Below the pieces are notes generated by a model. That model made no database searches, was not told the DNA's origin, and saw only the letters and a program-made list of their open reading frames with translations. Below are positions 49,633 to 64,000 of a DNA stretch of 64,000 nt, piece after piece. The stretch spans positions 1,585,586 through 1,649,585 of the forward strand of contig JAHBVS010000001.1 in the NCBI GenBank assembly GCA_019637445.1, read 5' to 3'. Position 1 is the stretch's first letter. Each line of letters opens with the position of its first letter. The translations under genes were made by a program, and so were the position numbers. The DNA comes from Gemmatimonadaceae bacterium. GTDB taxonomy: Bacteria; Gemmatimonadota; Gemmatimonadetes; Gemmatimonadales; Gemmatimonadaceae.

Positions 49633-50349
49633 TTACTGTCTTAATGGTGTCCTGCCATCAGCCTCTCGAACAGCTGCATCGATGTCAGGAGCGTGATCCT
49701 CGTACTCCGGGAGAGCCTTGGCGCGCTCACTGACGAGTGCCGCCGAGAGCCGCGCTGCAAAACGCGCGCGCGCATCGATGTTGCTCAGCAGCCCATTGGC
49801 CCGCATGCCGAGAATGAGTCCCAGCAAATGCGAGGGTTGCGTGGCGAGGATGGAGTCGGCCTGCGCGAGTGCAAGCTCCCCGTCGCCGCTCACCAATCCG
49901 AGCAGGCCGAGGTCGTAGCGCTGATGTGCATTGAGCGGAGCCAGCGCCTCGAAGCTCTGGATGGCCATCGGCGCGAAGAACGTGACCGAGTCGCTCTTTC
50001 CTTCGGATACGTAGGTCATCACGCGCTGGAAAAGGCGGTCCGCACGCTCCTGCGGACCCATCTGCGAGATGTCGGGCGCGCGTCCGGCCGTCGCTGCCAC
50101 GGGAGTTGCCGCGGTGGACGCTCGCCGCGCCCCGCCAAACTGCTGTCCCACCACAAAGGCGAGCAGCGCCAGCAGTGCGATACCCGCCACCGACCACGGG
50201 AGGATGGTGGCCAGGGCGTTGGCCGCCGGAGCGCTGGCTGGGGTACCTCGCGCGGCGCTTGCGGCGCCGTCGCGGGCGGCGCCGCAGCGGTGACAGAAAG
50301 CGCCACGCTCCCCGAGCGCGGCGCCACAGGACGCACAATGACGAGCCAT
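49633..50349 (-). CDS. zinc-ribbon membrane protein
   Basis: The 238-residue protein starts with a zinc ribbon (CASCGAALGERGAFCHRCGAA), followed by a disordered Ala-rich linker and one helix near 50-68 (ILPWSVAGIALLALLAFVVG). A C-terminal helical domain of about 140 residues resembles a TPR-like repeat (YDLGLLGLVSGDGELALAQADSILATQPSHLLGLILG). The zinc ribbon is cytoplasmic and the helical part probably extracytoplasmic. Its start is 68 bases from the divergent glnA. Function is unknown. Confidence 0.75.
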   Translation of the reverse strand: MARHCASCGAALGERGAFCHRCGAARDGAASAARGTPASAPAANALATILPWSVAGIALLALLAFVVGQQFGGARRASTAATPVAATAGRAPDISQMGPQERADRLFQRVMTYVSEGKSDSVTFFAPMAIQSFEALAPLNAHQRYDLGLLGLVSGDGELALAQADSILATQPSHLLGLILGMRANGLLSNIDARARFAARLSAALVSERAKALPEYEDHAPDIDAAVREADGRTPLRQ

Positions 50350-50405
50350 GGGCGAAAGCTAATCGCCGCCTGCGGCGGCAATGGCGAAGACCCTGCGGGA
50401 GCGGA

Positions 50406-50411
50406 GATATT
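50406..50411 (+). promoter_or_regulatory. -10-like box of glnA
   Basis: GATATT is followed by CCCCGT and then the ATG at 50418, a 6-base gap with no ribosome-binding site in it. GGAG lies further upstream (overlapping the box), so a normal leader cannot be excluded. Confidence 0.35.
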
Positions 50412-50417
50412 CCCCGT

Positions 50418-51782
50418 ATGGCTCAGAAGTCCCCAGCGGTTCCCAGCGACCTCAGCGGCGCCACGGCGAAGGACATCCTCGGCCTCGCCGAGTCGCAAGG
50501 CGTGCGCTTTCTCCGACTGCAGTTCACCGACATCCTCGGCATCAACAAGAACGTCGAAGTGCCGGCGTCGCAGTTCGCCAAGGCCCTGGCGGGCGACATC
50601 CTCTTCGATGGCTCGTCCATCGAGGGTTTCGTGCGCGTCGAGGAATCCGACCAGTTGCTGAAGCCGGACTTCTCGACCTTCCGCGTGTTTCCCTGGGGTG
50701 ATCCGGCGCAGCGCGTGGCGCGTGTGATCTGCGACGTGGCGAATCCGGAGGGCGAGGCCTTCGCCGGTGATCCCCGCCAGGTGCTCAAGCGGCAGGTCGC
50801 CCGCGCCGCCAAGCTCGGCTACGTGATGAACGCGGGGATGGAAGCCGAGTTCTTCCTGTTCCGTCCAGCCAGCGATGGAGGGGCGGCGACGCTGACGCAC
50901 GACGTGGGCGGTTATTTCGATTTGGCGCCGATGGATCGTGGCGAGGATGCGCGTCGCGCCATCGTTGGCGTGCTCGAGCAGCTCGGCTTTGAGGTGGAGG
51001 CCGCACACCACGAGGTGGCGCACGGCCAGCACGAGATCGACTTCCGGTACGCCGACGCGCTGACCACGGCCGACAACATCGCGACGTTCCGCTTCGTGGT
51101 GAAGCACGTGGCGCAGCAGTTCGGGCTGGTCGCGTCGTTCATGCCGAAGCCCGTCTTTGGGCAGAACGGCAGCGGCATGCACACGCACCAATCGCTGTTC
51201 GTGAAGGGCGAGAACTCGTTCTTCGATGCAAAGGGCGAGTTCGAGCTCTCGAGCGTGGCCCACCACTACATCGGTGGGTTGCTCAAGCACGCGCGCGGGA
51301 TGTGCGCCATCACGAACCCACTGGTGAATTCGTACAAGCGCCTCGTGCCCGGCTACGAAGCCCCGGTGAACGTGGCCTGGTCGATGCACAACCGCTCGCC
51401 GCTCATCCGTGTGCCGGCACGTCGCGGCACGGGCACGCGTGTGGAGTTGCGGTCGCCCGACCCGGCGGCCAATCCGTACCTCGCGCTCGCGGTGATGCTG
51501 GCGGCGGGTCTCGACGGCATTGCGACCGAAGCCACCAGTCGCGAGCCGGTGAACGAGAACATCTGGGAGATGAGCCACCGCGAACGGCGGCGGCTGCGCA
51601 TCGACGACCTCCCACGCGACCTCAACGAGGCCTGCGATGAGCTGGAGAAGGACGCGGAGATTTGCGAGGCGCTGGGTCCGCACGTGACGCAGCACTTCCT
51701 GGCCGCGAAGCGCGAAGAGTGGCGCGACTACATCTCGCAGGTCTCGGCCTGGGAGCTGGAGCGCTACCTCGCCAAGTATTGA
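50418..51782 (+). CDS. glnA: type I-alpha glutamine synthetase
   Basis: This enzyme makes glutamine from glutamate, ammonia and ATP. The 454-residue protein has the GSI motifs LFDGSSIEGFVRVEESD, GMEAEFFLF, GQNGSGMHTHQSLF, PLVNSYKRLVPGYEAP and RVPARRGTGTRVELRSPDPAANPYLA. The Arg in EGFVRVEESD and the absence of the adenylylation Tyr loop near the C-terminus place it in the GSI-alpha group, which is controlled by feedback rather than AMP attachment. A GSIII gene lies about 12 kb away. An FKBP gene follows after 4 bases. Confidence 0.96.
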   Translation: MAQKSPAVPSDLSGATAKDILGLAESQGVRFLRLQFTDILGINKNVEVPASQFAKALAGDILFDGSSIEGFVRVEESDQLLKPDFSTFRVFPWGDPAQRVARVICDVANPEGEAFAGDPRQVLKRQVARAAKLGYVMNAGMEAEFFLFRPASDGGAATLTHDVGGYFDLAPMDRGEDARRAIVGVLEQLGFEVEAAHHEVAHGQHEIDFRYADALTTADNIATFRFVVKHVAQQFGLVASFMPKPVFGQNGSGMHTHQSLFVKGENSFFDAKGEFELSSVAHHYIGGLLKHARGMCAITNPLVNSYKRLVPGYEAPVNVAWSMHNRSPLIRVPARRGTGTRVELRSPDPAANPYLALAVMLAAGLDGIATEATSREPVNENIWEMSHRERRRLRIDDLPRDLNEACDELEKDAEICEALGPHVTQHFLAAKREEWRDYISQVSAWELERYLAKY

Positions 51783-54215: not shown

Positions 54216-54313
54216 CGGCGACTCGCGAAGGGGGAGTGGGGAAAGTGCGGCGCGGCGCCCGGGCCGGCCACCCCTTGTTGCCGCGTCGCCGGACAGGCAT
54301 CGTGCGGGACCCC

Positions 54314-55723
54314 ATGGCCGCCGGAAAATCCCCCAAGAGCTTCGATCGCTCGATCGTCGAAGGCCCGATTGCGGCTGCCGTCTGGAAGCTGGCGTGGCCG
54401 ACCGTGCTGGGGAACGTGATTGGCGGCCTGCAGGGCGTGGTGGACCACGCCATGGTCGGCCACTACGTGGGCTACACGGGCAACGCGGCCATCGGTGTGT
54501 CGCTGCAGATCTTTCTTGTGGTCGTGGTCTTCGTGATGTCGCTGTACACCGGTATGGGGGTGCTCGTGGCGCGCTTCGCCGGCGCCAACGACCCCGCGAA
54601 GGTGAACCACGTCGTGTACCAAGCGGTGGTCGCCACGGTCGTGCTGGCGGTGGCGATCCTCGCACCGGTGGGCTGGCTATTGGCGCCGTCGCTCCTCGCC
54701 CTGGTGCGGGCAGCGCCGGAGGTGCAACTCGAGGCGCTGCCCTACCTGCGCCTGATGTTCCTCGGCAACATCGGCATGATGTCGTTCTTCCTGTTGAGCG
54801 GCGCGCTGCGCGCGGCAGGTGACGCGCAGACGCCGTTGCGACTCGGTGCCGCGATGACGGCGCTCAACATCGTCTGCAACGTGATCCTCATCCGCGGGCT
54901 CGGACCGATTCCCGCCTACGGTACGATGGGCGCGGCGATGGGCACCTTGATTGCCGGCATCGTGGTGGGAGCTGTCGGATTCTGGTTGATGCTCAGCGGG
55001 CGCTTGGTGATTCACTGGCCACGCGAGATGTCGCGACGCGTGGACTGGCCGACGATCCGCGAGCTCTTCCGCTTCGGTCTGCCGGCGGGTCTGCAGGGGA
55101 TTGCGATGAACGTGGCGGGTGTGTTCCTGCTGCGCTTCATCGGGTCGCTGCGGCAGAGTGCCGAGGCGCAGGCGGCGTATGCCGTGGCATATACGGAGCT
55201 GTTCTCGCTGGTGACCTGGACCTCGGTGGGTCTGATGGGGGCCGCCGCCGCGGTGGCGGGCCAGAACCTCGGGGCCCAGAAGCCGGAACGTGTGGCGCAG
55301 GCGGTGCGCATCGCCTCCACCTACGGTGTGGGGATCGCCGTGGTGGTTGGCACGCTGTTCCTGCTCGTGCCCGAGGCGCTGCTGGCGGTGTTCGGCATGA
55401 CGGATGCTGTCAGCGTCGCCATCGCGACCGAACTGATGGGTTGGCTGGCTGTGTCTGGGCTGTTTGTCTCGACGGCGCTGACCTACACGGGTGGGCTGCA
55501 GGGCACGGGTGACACCAAGGGGCCGCTGTACATCTCGATCATCTCGCAGATTGTCGTGCCGCTCGGGCTGTTGTCCGTGTTGCAGATGCAGGGACCGTTG
55601 GAGCCGGTGGACATTTGGCGCGCGATCGTGCTGGGTCATCTCACGCGCGGTGCGCTGAGCGTGTTGCGGTTCCGGCGTGGGGCCTGGAAGGGCATCGAGA
55701 TCGGGAAGGGCGTCGCCGGATAG
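54314..55723 (+). CDS. MATE family efflux transporter
   Basis: The 469-residue inner-membrane exporter has 12 helices in two homologous halves. The family start (IAAAVWKLAWPTVLGNVIGGLQGVVDHAMVGHYVG) and the second-half equivalent (TIRELFRFGLPAGLQGIAMNVAGVFLLRFIGSL) are both clear, as are QNLGAQKPERV and LTYTGGLQGTGDTKGP. MATE pumps export organic cations and natural products by H+ or Na+ exchange. ATG at 54314 is used; GTG at 54302 is possible. It stands 150 bases before the ATP-grasp genes, so it could export their product; that is inference. Confidence 0.93.
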   Translation: MAAGKSPKSFDRSIVEGPIAAAVWKLAWPTVLGNVIGGLQGVVDHAMVGHYVGYTGNAAIGVSLQIFLVVVVFVMSLYTGMGVLVARFAGANDPAKVNHVVYQAVVATVVLAVAILAPVGWLLAPSLLALVRAAPEVQLEALPYLRLMFLGNIGMMSFFLLSGALRAAGDAQTPLRLGAAMTALNIVCNVILIRGLGPIPAYGTMGAAMGTLIAGIVVGAVGFWLMLSGRLVIHWPREMSRRVDWPTIRELFRFGLPAGLQGIAMNVAGVFLLRFIGSLRQSAEAQAAYAVAYTELFSLVTWTSVGLMGAAAAVAGQNLGAQKPERVAQAVRIASTYGVGIAVVVGTLFLLVPEALLAVFGMTDAVSVAIATELMGWLAVSGLFVSTALTYTGGLQGTGDTKGPLYISIISQIVVPLGLLSVLQMQGPLEPVDIWRAIVLGHLTRGALSVLRFRRGAWKGIEIGKGVAG

Positions 55724-55873: not shown

Positions 55874-57028
55874 ATGAGTACCGTCCTGCGATCCGGGTCG
55901 CAGTCCGACGAGCCCACCGCACACGCGCAAGCGCTTGTGTGCGTGTTGGTGCCGCATCTCGAGACCGACGACCCGAACCTCGCCTGGTACTGCGACTTCT
56001 CGCAGAGTCGCGCGGAGTTTCGCCGCGCCTTTGCCTCGCTTGGTCTCGAGTGGCGTTGGCAGCGCATCACGCTTGATGATCGCGACGCCGTGATTGCGCG
56101 TCTTGCCCGCCTCGCGCGTCGTCGTCCCGTCACGGTCTTCAATCTCTGTGATGGCGACGAACGCAACGGTGTGCCGGGGCTCTCGGTCATTCACGCCCTG
56201 GAAGCCGCCGGCCTTCGCTATACCGGTGCGGATGCGCCCTACTTCGATGGCACGACCTCGAAGATCGACATGAAGCGCGCCTTCGATGCGGCGTCGGTGC
56301 CGACGGCCGTCTGGGGCGTCGTCGAGCCGGAGGGACGCAACGCGGCGTCGTTGTTCGAGCGCATCGGGGCGCCTCTGATTGTCAAACCCGCTGTGTCGGC
56401 GGGGTCGATGGGCGTCACCACGAAGTCGGTAGTGCACTCGACCGACGAACTGCGCGCGCAGATGAAGCGGCTGCAGCACGGCTATCACGGATGGGACCTC
56501 ACCACGGACGGCGTCCTGGCCGAGCGATTCGTGAGCGGCCGTGAGTACACGACGTTCGTCGTCGGGCACCACGACGCGCCTTCGCGTCGGCTCGTGTACG
56601 CGCCCGTCGAACGTCGCTTCAACGAGCGTCTGAGCGCGCAGGAGCGTTTCCTCTCGTTCGATCGCCTCTGGGGCATGTACGAGGTCGAGGAACCGGTCGG
56701 GGGCGAGAAGGACGAGGACCTGTGGCGGTACGCGCCAGTGGATCGGCGGGAGGCCGCCGAGCTACGTGAGGTGAGCTGGGCGGCGTACGCGGCAGTCGGC
56801 GGGCGTGGCTACGGTCGCGTGGACCTGCGACGCGACGCAACCACCGGCGCCTTGGCCGTGCTTGAGGTCAACGCGCAGTGCGGACTCTCGGAAGACGAGA
56901 ACTACACATCGATTGGCGCGATCCTCCGCTTCGCGCGGCGGCCGTTTGCCCACGCCGTCCAGGCCATCCTTTCGGCGGCGGGCCCACGCGCCCGGCGCGG
57001 ACAGCGGCGGCGCATCGAGGCCGCTTGA
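55874..57028 (+). CDS. ATP-grasp ligase, D-Ala-D-Ala ligase-like
   Basis: The 384-residue protein has the three ATP-grasp subdomains. Residues 1-100 include VTVFNLCDGDERNGVPGLSVIHALEAAGLRYTGAD. The ATP-binding part has LIVKPAVSAGSMGVTTKS and GVLAERFVSGREYTTFVVG. The metal site has GYGRVDLRRD followed by VLEVNAQCGLSEDENYT. In true Ddl enzymes the last motif is N-T-x-P-G; here it is NAQCGLS, so the acceptor is probably different. It overlaps the next gene by 4 bases. It most likely forms an amide bond between small amino compounds or onto a peptide. Confidence 0.85.
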   Translation: MSTVLRSGSQSDEPTAHAQALVCVLVPHLETDDPNLAWYCDFSQSRAEFRRAFASLGLEWRWQRITLDDRDAVIARLARLARRRPVTVFNLCDGDERNGVPGLSVIHALEAAGLRYTGADAPYFDGTTSKIDMKRAFDAASVPTAVWGVVEPEGRNAASLFERIGAPLIVKPAVSAGSMGVTTKSVVHSTDELRAQMKRLQHGYHGWDLTTDGVLAERFVSGREYTTFVVGHHDAPSRRLVYAPVERRFNERLSAQERFLSFDRLWGMYEVEEPVGGEKDEDLWRYAPVDRREAAELREVSWAAYAAVGGRGYGRVDLRRDATTGALAVLEVNAQCGLSEDENYTSIGAILRFARRPFAHAVQAILSAAGPRARRGQRRRIEAA

Positions 57029-58467
57029 AGATCTGCGTCCTGCAGCCGGACTACTCCACCTCGACGGTGGACTATCGCCACTACGACCCTCCACGTGACC
57101 TGCGCCCGCTCGCACCCGGCCACGAGGTGCACCACGAGTCGCTGCACAAGCTGAGCACCTACGCGCAGCTGCGCGCACTGGCCGGGCAGGGGTTCGACGT
57201 CTTCGTGAACCTCTGCGAGGGCTACCTCGAGTGGGACGTGCCGTCCATCGACGTCATCCACGCACTCGAGGCCCTGGACCTGCCGTACACGGGCGCATCG
57301 GCTCGGCTCTACGACCCACCGAAGCCGGTGATGAAGTACGTCGCGCACTCGGCGGGCATCGCGACGCCGCGACACGTCGTGCTGGGTGCCGGTGATGACG
57401 CGGCGCAGGCCACGCGGCGCGCCGGTCTCCGCTATCCGCTCTTCGTGAAGCCCGCGAAGGCCGGCGACAGCCTGGGCATCGACGAGCACTCCTGCGTGGC
57501 GGACGAACAGGGTCTACTGCTGCAGGTCGAGCGGGTCCGGCCCGAGCATCCGGAGTTGCTGATCGAGGAGTACATCGCGGGTCGCGAGTTCACGGTGCTG
57601 GTGGTCGGAGACCCCACCGAGTCCGGCAAGGGCACGGCGCTCGCGCCGATCGAGTATCGCTTCCCGGCGGACATCGGGTTCAAGAGCTACGCGCTGAAGA
57701 CAAGCGAGTTGCATCCCGACGCCAACGTCCGCGTGACCGAGCCCGCCGTCCGCGATGCGCTGCGTGCCGCGGCGGAGGCGGTGTTTCGCGGCTTCGACGG
57801 CACGGGATATGCGAGAATGGACTTTCGCATGGACGCCGCCGGCACGCTGTACTTCCTCGAGGTCAACTTCACCTGCTCGGTCTTCTATCCACGCGGATGG
57901 GAAGGCTCGGCGGACCACATCCTCGCGCTCGATGGGTTGGGCCAGGCCGGCTTCCTGATGCGCATCATCGCTGAGGGCCGGGCGCGGCACGCGCGCCGTC
58001 GGCGCGCGTACGTGCTGCGGGGCGACTCCATCGCGGGCTATGGGATCGTCGCTACGCGTGCGCTGGCGCCCGGCGACATCGTGTTTCGCGGCGAGGAGCG
58101 CGCGCAGCGCATCGTGACGCGGCGGCACGTGGACGAGCGCTGGAACGCCTCGGACCGCGCACTGTTCGATCGCTACGCGTATCCGCTAAGCGACGAGGTC
58201 TCCATCATCTGGGACCGTGAACCCGAGGAATGGGCCCCGCAGAACCATTCCTGCGAGCCCAACACGGCGTATGACGGGCTAAATGTCGTCGCGCGCCGCG
58301 CGATCCCGGTCGGTGAGGAGCTGACACTGGACTACGCGGACTTCCTCGACGATAGTGCGGAGCCATTCGACTGCGCCTGCGGCTCCGCGCGCTGTCGAGG
58401 GCGCATCGTCGGGACCGCTTCCAACTCGGTGACGGCGCGGGAGCACGCGCGCCGCCACGCCTCGTAG
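57025..58467 (+). CDS. ATP-grasp ligase fused to a C-terminal SET domain
   Basis: The 480-residue protein has two parts. Residues 1-315 are a D-Ala-D-Ala-ligase-like ATP-grasp enzyme: MKICVLQPDYSTSTVDYRHY, LFVKPAKAGDSLGIDEHS, LLIEEYIAGREFTVLVVG, RMDFRMDAAGTLYFLEVNFTC. Residues 325-465 are a SET methyltransferase domain: SIAGYGIVATRALAPGDIVF, the cofactor-binding NHSCEPN (407-413), ELTLDYADF with the catalytic Tyr437, and a post-SET CACGSARC (450-457). SET domains methylate lysine side chains. The start is TTG at 57025, overlapping the previous stop (TTGA). The domain pair suggests ligation and methylation of one target. Confidence 0.88.
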   Translation: MKICVLQPDYSTSTVDYRHYDPPRDLRPLAPGHEVHHESLHKLSTYAQLRALAGQGFDVFVNLCEGYLEWDVPSIDVIHALEALDLPYTGASARLYDPPKPVMKYVAHSAGIATPRHVVLGAGDDAAQATRRAGLRYPLFVKPAKAGDSLGIDEHSCVADEQGLLLQVERVRPEHPELLIEEYIAGREFTVLVVGDPTESGKGTALAPIEYRFPADIGFKSYALKTSELHPDANVRVTEPAVRDALRAAAEAVFRGFDGTGYARMDFRMDAAGTLYFLEVNFTCSVFYPRGWEGSADHILALDGLGQAGFLMRIIAEGRARHARRRRAYVLRGDSIAGYGIVATRALAPGDIVFRGEERAQRIVTRRHVDERWNASDRALFDRYAYPLSDEVSIIWDREPEEWAPQNHSCEPNTAYDGLNVVARRAIPVGEELTLDYADFLDDSAEPFDCACGSARCRGRIVGTASNSVTAREHARRHAS

Positions 58468-58504: not shown

Positions 58505-58945
58505 ATGCACCGCCGCATCGTATCGTCGCTTGCCGCCTTGGCCGCGCTCGCCGTCCTGCTCATCCCGCAGCAGGCGGGCGCCCAGAGCTACGCCGAGACC
58601 GTCTGGAACCAGCTCAACCGCGCCTACCAACAGGTGAACGGTGACGGCTACAACACGCGCAACTACATCATCGGGCGGATGAACAGCGGCGCGAGCGATA
58701 GCTGGACCTTCTCGCTGCCGGGCAACTCGACCTACCGGATCATCGGCGTCTGCGACAACGACTGCGATGACCTCGACATCGCGGTGATGGACGGTGATCG
58801 CAAGGTGGCCGAGGATGTCCTCGACGACGACGTGCCGATCGTGAACTTCTCGTCCAAGGGTGAGACGCGGTATACCATCAAGGTCACGATGGCGTCCTGC
58901 AAGTCGGAGCCCTGCTTCTTCGGCATTGGGGTGTTCTACAAGTAG
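58505..58945 (+). CDS. small secreted protein next to the ATP-grasp/SET genes
   Basis: The 146-residue protein has a clean signal peptide (LAALAALAVLLIPQQAGAQ). A short helical stretch and a beta-sandwich-like domain follow, resembling pre-peptidase C-terminal (PPC) domains: SDSWTFSLPGNSTYRIIGVCDNDCDDLDIAVMD. It has four Cys in two close pairs (CDNDC and CKSEPC), probably disulfides, and acidic clusters (DCDDLD, LDDD). The 37-base gap after the SET gene contains CAGGAGCCCCC just before the ATG. It could be a modified target of the upstream enzymes, but that is speculation. Confidence 0.72.
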   Translation: MHRRIVSSLAALAALAVLLIPQQAGAQSYAETVWNQLNRAYQQVNGDGYNTRNYIIGRMNSGASDSWTFSLPGNSTYRIIGVCDNDCDDLDIAVMDGDRKVAEDVLDDDVPIVNFSSKGETRYTIKVTMASCKSEPCFFGIGVFYK

Positions 58946-62562: not shown

Positions 62563-64000
62563 TTAGACCGGGAACAGCATCTCCCGATACCGTGGCAACG
62601 GCCAGTACTGGTCGCCGATGCTCAGCTCCAGCGCATCCGACGACTCGCGGCAGGCCGCCATCGCATCCGTGCCCGTCGTCGTGAGGAACATCGCGGCCTT
62701 CACAAGATCCTCGTGCATGCCCTCGGCCTTGGCGATCGCCTTCTTGAGCGCCTCGGACTGGCCCTGCAGCTTGGCCACCAACGCGCCGGTCTTCTCGGCG
62801 GCCGCCTTCTGCGGGATCGCCTTGATGCCCGCTTCCTTCGCCCGCGCCGCACCGTTGGCCAGTGCGCCGAGGTAGTCATAGGCGGCTGGGAGGATCATCG
62901 TGTCCACCAGCTCGGCCATCGTGTACATCTCGATGAGCACGTCCTTGATGTAGCGCTCCATCCGGATGTGGAAGCGGCTCTCCACCTCAGCCTTGGTCAG
63001 GATGCCGGTGGACGTGAACAACTTCTTCGCCGCCGGCGTGTCGAGCTGCGCGAGCGCCTCGGGTGCGCGGCGCAGGTTGAGCAGGCCGCGCTTCTTGGCC
63101 TCCTTCACCCACTCCTCGCTGTAACCGTTGCCCTCGAAGCGGATGGCCGAGGTCTCCTTGAAGGCGGCGCGCACGACCTTCAATGCGGCGTCGTCCACGG
63201 ACTTGGTCTTCTTGAGCTCGGCCTTGAGGTCCGCAGTGATCTCGCCGATCGCCTCGGCGACCACCGTGTTCAGCACCGTGGCAGGGAAGGCGATCGACTG
63301 CGAGGATCCCACCGCACGGAACTCGAACTTCGCGCCCGTGAATGCGAACGGCGACGTCCGGTTGCGGTCCGTGTTGTCCTGCTCGATCTCGGGCAGCTTG
63401 GCCACGCCGAGCTTCAGCATCGCCTGCGCGGCGGAGCTTCCGGCGCGGCCGGCGATGATGTCCTCGATCATGTTCGTGAGCGTCGCGCCCATGAAGACCG
63501 AGATGATGGCCGGCGGCGCCTCGTTGGCGCCGAGGCGATGCTCGTTGCCCGAGGTGCCGATGCTGGCGCGCAGCACGCCCTGGTGCTTGTAGACACCCTT
63601 GAGCACCGCGGCGAGGAAGAGCAGGAAGCGGATGTTCTGGTGCGGCGTCTTGCCCGGCTTGAGCAGGTTGATGCCGTTCAGTGCGTTGTCCGCGTGGATG
63701 GCCATCGACCAGTTGCAGTGCTTGCCCGAACCGTTGATGCCGGCGAAGGGCTTCTCGTGCAAGAGCGCCTGCAGGCCGTGGCGGAGCGCGACGTCCTTCA
63801 GCACCGACATCACCATCTGGTTGTGGTCCGTGGCGATGTCCGTCTCCTCGAACACCGGTGCCATCTCGAACTGGCAAGGCGCGACCTCGTTGTGCCGCGT
63901 GACGATCGGCACGCCGAGCTTGTAGAGCTCGAACTCCACCTCGGCGATGCAGGCCTGCACGCGCTCGGGGATGCCACCGAAGTAGTGGTCCTCGAGCTGC
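62563..64000 (-). CDS. glnN: type III glutamine synthetase (partial, 5' end outside window)
   Basis: The visible 478 residues belong to the large GSIII enzyme, normally about 700 residues. The right edge reads EDHYFGGIPERV, then TRHNEVAPCQFEMAPVFEETDIATDHNQMVM, KPFAGINGSGKHCNWS, GTSGNEHRLGANEAPPAIIS and DRNRTSPFAFTGAKFEFRAVGSSQS, all GSIII signatures around the active site. The C-terminal helical region (residues from about 360) is typical. It makes glutamine from glutamate and ammonia, in addition to the GSI-alpha at 50418. The gene runs off the right end, so its start and promoter are not visible. Confidence 0.95.
   Translation of the reverse strand, partial: QLEDHYFGGIPERVQACIAEVEFELYKLGVPIVTRHNEVAPCQFEMAPVFEETDIATDHNQMVMSVLKDVALRHGLQALLHEKPFAGINGSGKHCNWSMAIHADNALNGINLLKPGKTPHQNIRFLLFLAAVLKGVYKHQGVLRASIGTSGNEHRLGANEAPPAIISVFMGATLTNMIEDIIAGRAGSSAAQAMLKLGVAKLPEIEQDNTDRNRTSPFAFTGAKFEFRAVGSSQSIAFPATVLNTVVAEAIGEITADLKAELKKTKSVDDAALKVVRAAFKETSAIRFEGNGYSEEWVKEAKKRGLLNLRRAPEALAQLDTPAAKKLFTSTGILTKAEVESRFHIRMERYIKDVLIEMYTMAELVDTMILPAAYDYLGALANGAARAKEAGIKAIPQKAAAEKTGALVAKLQGQSEALKKAIAKAEGMHEDLVKAAMFLTTTGTDAMAACRESSDALELSIGDQYWPLPRYREMLFPV

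Follow-up and report, generated by a model that had tools for sequence, protein, structure and literature searches.

SET domains are textbook protein-lysine methyltransferases, and an active-site tyrosine is generally important in lysine methyltransferases. In KMT2A/MLL and other histone-lysine methyltransferases, the SET domain is followed by a post-SET cysteine cluster. A recent exception to the protein-lysine rule is BurB (MSMT), a single-domain enzyme with the SET fold and a small-molecule substrate, which acts on a free amino acid by S-methylation of methionine and keeps more than 60% of its activity as a Y124F variant (PMC12542666). BurB is not reported together with ATP-grasp ligases. 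The combination of a SET domain and an ATP-grasp-type ligase in one protein is represented in eukaryotes by TTLL12, in which the SET-like part is N-terminal and a ligase of the tubulin-tyrosine-ligase (TTL) type is C-terminal; critical residues are missing, and no histone methyltransferase activity was found in vitro (PMC3520985).

The locus described here lies in a 64,000-nucleotide stretch of DNA from a Gemmatimonadaceae bacterium (the window) and includes a gene, B, whose product joins the two kinds of domain in the other order, a Ddl-type ligase (of the D-alanine-D-alanine ligase fold) first and SET second. TTLL12 is a parallel to B and a different protein. The features of the locus are as follows.

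54236..55723, + strand: MATE-family exporter, 150 bp upstream of gene A on the same strand; the listed start may be too early
55874..57028, + strand: gene A, a second, separate Ddl-type ATP-grasp ligase of 384 aa, ending in a 4-bp overlap with the start of B
57025..58467, + strand: fusion gene B, with an ATP-grasp ligase domain (aa 1 to about 326) and then SET plus post-SET (aa about 330-465)
57025..58002, + strand: ligase domain of B, Ddl-type ATP-grasp by Pfam and by its residues, with an unusual N281-F-T-C-S-V-F-Y288 loop
58012..58419, + strand: SET domain of B, with GYG 338-340, NHSC 407-410, Tyr437 and post-SET C450/C452/C457

A two-domain protein and its partner ligase

The open reading frame of B runs without interruption from a TTG codon to the stop (480 aa). 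This start codon, within a TTGA at 57025 that overlaps the stop of gene A, is mostly ATG in the relatives. Pfam searches matched Dala_Dala_lig_C (PF07478) to residues 109-282 (E 1.5e-19, 70.8 bits against a cut-off of 24) and SET (PF00856) to residues 338-437 (E 6.6e-10, 39.8 bits against a cut-off of 22.4). An AlphaFold2 model of both domains together, with 36 relatives as input, had a mean pLDDT of 91 and a pTM of 0.86, and residues 1-331 superposed on D-Ala-D-Ala ligases with Z up to 29.0 and an rmsd of 2.6-3.0 Å over about 296 residues. The structural match lists (Foldseek, VIA) were filled by Ddl chains, and the SET half was assigned from sequence alone.

A first-pass annotation of the window had proposed an ATP-grasp ligase in frame with a SET domain, and the open frame, the Pfam matches, the model and the full-length relatives all bear this out. 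B is a genuine single protein of ligase plus SET; a sequencing artefact or a frame fusion joining two genes is ruled out by full-length relatives in many independent assemblies, in which the halves are likewise fused. The complete Ddl-type ligase that had been placed at residues 1-315 is present, with its end slightly further on, at about residue 326. The reported motifs were all found where they had been claimed, that is, NFTCSVF at 281-287, NHSCEPN at 407-413, Tyr at 437 and the post-SET CxC-x4-C at 450/452/457.

That annotation had overlooked gene A, which makes B the second gene of a pair. Gene A lies directly upstream of B in 42/42 compared loci (those from which both genes were extracted), and the 4-bp overlap between the two is kept in most Gemmatimonadota. 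Pairwise distances of A and of the B ligase were correlated (r 0.83), a correlation of which shared ancestry alone gives part. B stands without a neighboring A in Chlorobi-type loci, in a Balneola/Rhodothermia branch and in L107, whose B belongs to the main branch. Both A and B are ligases with the Ddl fold, and neither reaches the cut-off of any curated Ddl model among those listed. A search with the A1 profile at E 1e-20, a limit that was probably over-strict, returned zero matches.

Relationship to known ligases and SET enzymes

The ligase half of B shares its fold and the catalytic Lys, Glu, Arg, Asp and Asn residues with D-alanine-D-alanine and VanA-type ligases, but differs from them in the NF(T)CSVFY loop that follows the last catalytic Asn, in its low score and in the appended SET domain. 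All 36 aligned relatives of B carry the loop N-F-x-C-S-x-F-Y in place of NTxPG. Against TIGR01205 (D-alanine-D-alanine ligase) B scored 81.2 bits, with a cut-off of 245.65, and the other Ddl/Van models, among those listed, were also far under their cut-offs. Given the replaced loop and the score, the acceptor is probably not D-alanine, in agreement with what had been suggested from the loop of B. Distant relatives of A and B were observed in other Gemmatimonadota (L072, L073 and L074), where related ATP-grasp ligases form adjacent pairs as A and B do, but without SET.

The SET half of B has the features of the superfamily, namely the profile match, GxG, NHxC and the post-SET cysteines. Its similarity to KMT2A/MLL and other histone-lysine methyltransferases, with which it shares the post-SET cluster, is weak, as is its similarity to BurB. 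A profile comparison gave 54 bits to BurB versus 52 bits to KMT2A, a near tie by which the fused SET alone cannot be assigned to either type. Used as a single sequence, it found its best matches among KMT2-type histone methyltransferases (KMT2A at 35.9 bits, BurB at 32.4 bits).

A separate SET gene, S, encoding about 165-190 aa, precedes A in most Bacteroidota loci and is placed after the transporter in L108. When the S profile was searched against all solved structures, BurB was the top match at 90 bits, with the next chain at 49 bits, which makes BurB the nearest solved relative of S. S, BurB and a further small SET protein, S2, have in common a Y-x3-E motif, in which a Glu stands four residues after the active-site Tyr; this Glu is invariant in S. 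By its clear best similarity and this motif S is of the BurB type, whereas the fused SET of B lacks Y-x3-E and does not qualify. At the position of the Asn in NHxC, which is present in both S and B, BurB has a Leu. Two more SET proteins of the source genome (L079:5558-6122 and L080:5479-6394), used as a control for the S profile, matched SET1/KMT2 chains at 97-99 bits and are histone-methyltransferase-like, unlike the SET domains of the module.

In Gemmatimonadota the S-related gene is mostly unlinked to A-B, although in G187 it is directly beside B. Even so, S was found in 15/25 genomes with the cassette versus 7/174 without it (Fisher p 3e-11, with no correction for relatedness). In the source genome S has a nitrilase-like neighbor, which was considered as a pathway partner and rejected because it was not seen near S in five relatives. 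The Chlorobi-type loci (L103-L106) have the order S, B, a full ABC exporter and S2, without A. These loci place three SET domains around one ligase, and L106 adjoins bchI/bchD-like genes.

Gene neighborhood and a proposed pathway

The MATE gene (54236..55723) also adjoins A in the close relatives L037, L070 and L114, and it may export the product of the pathway. In Bacteroidota and in Gemmatimonadota (L045, L047, L048, L052-L055, L061, L108, L109) an ABC_membrane_3 protein (146 bits) is encoded directly after B. The type of transporter varies by lineage, and many loci have no adjacent transporter; different transporters at the same place would fit, without proving, the export of a made compound. 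Neighbor conservation, which had been put forward as a check on the fusion, was observed for A in the 42 loci compared, with S and transporters recurring. Among the compared loci no recurrent gene for a precursor peptide or a target protein was seen.

Other interpretations of the neighborhood were considered. A larger conserved biosynthetic cluster was rejected, the shared neighbors outside S, A, B and the transporter being local synteny, and so was a defence system, with no PADLOC match for A, B, S or the ABC_membrane_3 protein. Searches near the locus revealed no structured RNA at gathering score and no sigma-70-type promoters or terminators above chance. Another gene (58505-58945, + strand) lies 37 bp after B and encodes a small protein (146 aa) that looks secreted and matches no Pfam or NCBIfam model; similar proteins come after B in L040, L041, L043 and L044. 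Two different glutamine synthetases, type I-like and type III-like by eye, flank the region (50106-51782, + strand; 62563-64000, - strand). Also by eye, a B of the divergent branch in L101 (3043-11111) lies among genes for a gamma-glutamyltransferase, an N-formylglutamate amidohydrolase-like protein, a DUF1704-like protein and another ATP-grasp protein, and a probable gamma-glutamyl hydrolase is found near B in L102, so that gamma-glutamyl genes accompany a divergent B in two cases.

Two ligases that share the Ddl fold but fall outside the family, one of them fused to SET, are found with a SET enzyme of BurB-like type and with transporters that recur among the loci, a combination that points to a small-molecule pathway. 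On balance we favor a reading in which B is a bifunctional ligase/methyltransferase that, with A and a BurB-type SET enzyme where there is one, builds an exported, methylated di- or tripeptide-like metabolite; its activity, substrates, small-molecule nature and export are what we infer from the comparisons above. The ATP-grasp domain of B would activate a carboxylate with ATP to an acyl phosphate and join it to an amine, that of an amino-acid or dipeptide acceptor other than D-alanine. The SET domain would carry out a SAM-dependent methylation of the same small molecule or of its precursor, on N or S, although the two domains could work on different molecules; gene A would form a second, different amide bond. 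The BurB-type SET enzyme would take part from an adjacent gene in Bacteroidota and Chlorobi-type loci and from an unlinked one in Gemmatimonas, and the methylated product would leave the cell through the neighboring transporters of MATE or ABC type.

The first-pass annotation had also suggested that B ligates and methylates one target, for example a peptide or protein tail that contains lysine. The dual activity keeps its basis, as both halves are motif-complete, but the target is more probably a small molecule than a protein tail or a lysine. In its fuller form, that reading has the ligase adding an amino acid or peptide to the end or a side chain of a protein in which the SET domain also methylates a lysine, akin to tagging of the tubulin-tyrosine-ligase type, and we regard it as unlikely. 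That SET domains act mostly on protein lysines, that the best single-sequence matches of the fused SET are KMT2-type and that TTLL12 likewise joins SET-like and ATP-grasp-like domains would all agree with it; however, the KMT2A and BurB scores in that search are nearly equal, the partner S is clearly BurB-like, the ligases of A and B both belong to a fold family associated with small amino acids, and the loci have recurrent transporters rather than a recurrent target gene.

Distribution and conservation of the fusion

The same two-domain architecture was found in other genomes, as had been proposed for a check. Full-length relatives of B, mostly at 53-77% identity, occur in at least 45 genomes of several phyla, including Gemmatimonadota, Bacteroidota and some MAGs with other labels. 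Among the source genome and its relatives, 25/199 genomes carry B. A pattern scan with one genome per species yielded 34 loci, a set that overlaps the one from the 199 genomes, in Gemmatimonadota, Bacteroidota and a few differently labelled MAGs. In the phylum of L055, B was found in 17/395 genomes, with scores of about 770-840 bits in some, as in the main branch, and of about 455-490 bits in others. A divergent but full-length second branch comprises Chlorobi-like and Rhodothermia/Balneola-like genomes; some of these have bchI- and bchD-like genes near B (by eye) and are taken to be Chlorobi. B is, then, a real and old protein. No plasmid-borne copy was matched among 72,556 plasmid records. 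The module loci of two records titled Streptomyces griseus (L061) and Williamsia (L064) are Bacteroidota-like, and the gene order of L061 is common to the Chitinophagaceae loci L046, L049 and L054, so that both titles are probably wrong.

In Planctomycetota, 12/149 genomes carry the ligase part alone, related to that of B (match within 1-334) and without SET; no conserved neighbors of these ligases were found in the 12 genomes. The ligase hence exists without SET, which was either gained in a subset or lost elsewhere. This independence of ligation from SET, and the coexistence of free-standing SET genes with the fused one, would suit a fusion of mere convenience, with separate, uncoupled steps of one pathway in which a free amino acid is methylated by the SET domain, in the manner of BurB, and then used by a ligase. 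Nevertheless, no split into two genes was found among close relatives and the fusion persists in two strongly different branches (about 820 versus about 460 bits), and we give an uncoupled fusion a slightly smaller chance than the modification of a protein.

The bifunctional reading that we favor agrees with the residues retained in the 36 aligned relatives. In the ligase, K104, K142, E181, E188, R264, D266, N281, F282, C284, S285, F287 and Y288 showed no variation, and E279 is kept in 35/36, with Asp in the remaining one; the ATP/Mg residues of the ATP-grasp superfamily (Lys, Lys, Glu, Asp, Glu, Asn) are thus kept in B as K104, K142, E181, D266, E279 and N281. In the SET domain, G338, G340, N407, H408, C410, T434 and C450/C452/C457 are likewise without variation, and the retained SAM-binding motifs suggest that SAM binding has not been lost in the relatives. 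Tyr437, which had been called catalytic, is present in B and in 31/36 relatives but is not invariant, being Phe in 5/36 (L023, L026, L029, L050, L068). Since BurB Y124F is still active, a SET enzyme with a proximity mechanism could tolerate Phe at this position. A degenerate or regulatory SET domain beside a ligase that alone is active, for which these Phe residues and the lost activity of TTLL12 might speak, is very improbable, as the invariance of GxG, NHxC, Thr434 and the three post-SET Cys in 36/36 relatives is unexpected for a decaying enzyme.

The module apparently represents known kinds of enzyme in a new combination that is conserved and undescribed; no earlier description of a ligase-SET module was found in the literature searched, where ATP-grasp and SET domains are mentioned together only in work on TTLL12 and in one unrelated paper, a search outside which the 2009 amidoligase survey of Iyer and co-workers falls. 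More tentatively, and with somewhat less confidence than we place in the pathway itself, we propose that Gemmatimonadota, Bacteroidota and Chlorobi share an undescribed family of methylated compounds of non-ribosomal origin (small peptides or amino-acid conjugates with N-methyl or sulfonium groups), made by one or two ATP-grasp ligases and up to three SET methyltransferases that would be metabolite rather than chromatin enzymes, one of them fused to a ligase. With its two to four genes, the module is directly expressible and testable. In genome mining, its ligases could pass for D-Ala-D-Ala ligases and its SET genes for histone-type methyltransferases, and the class of methylated bacterial metabolites to which the module points could thus be overlooked. 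The conservation of SET enzymes, amide ligases and exporters as one module, in several phyla, suggests that SET domains have a broader role in metabolism.
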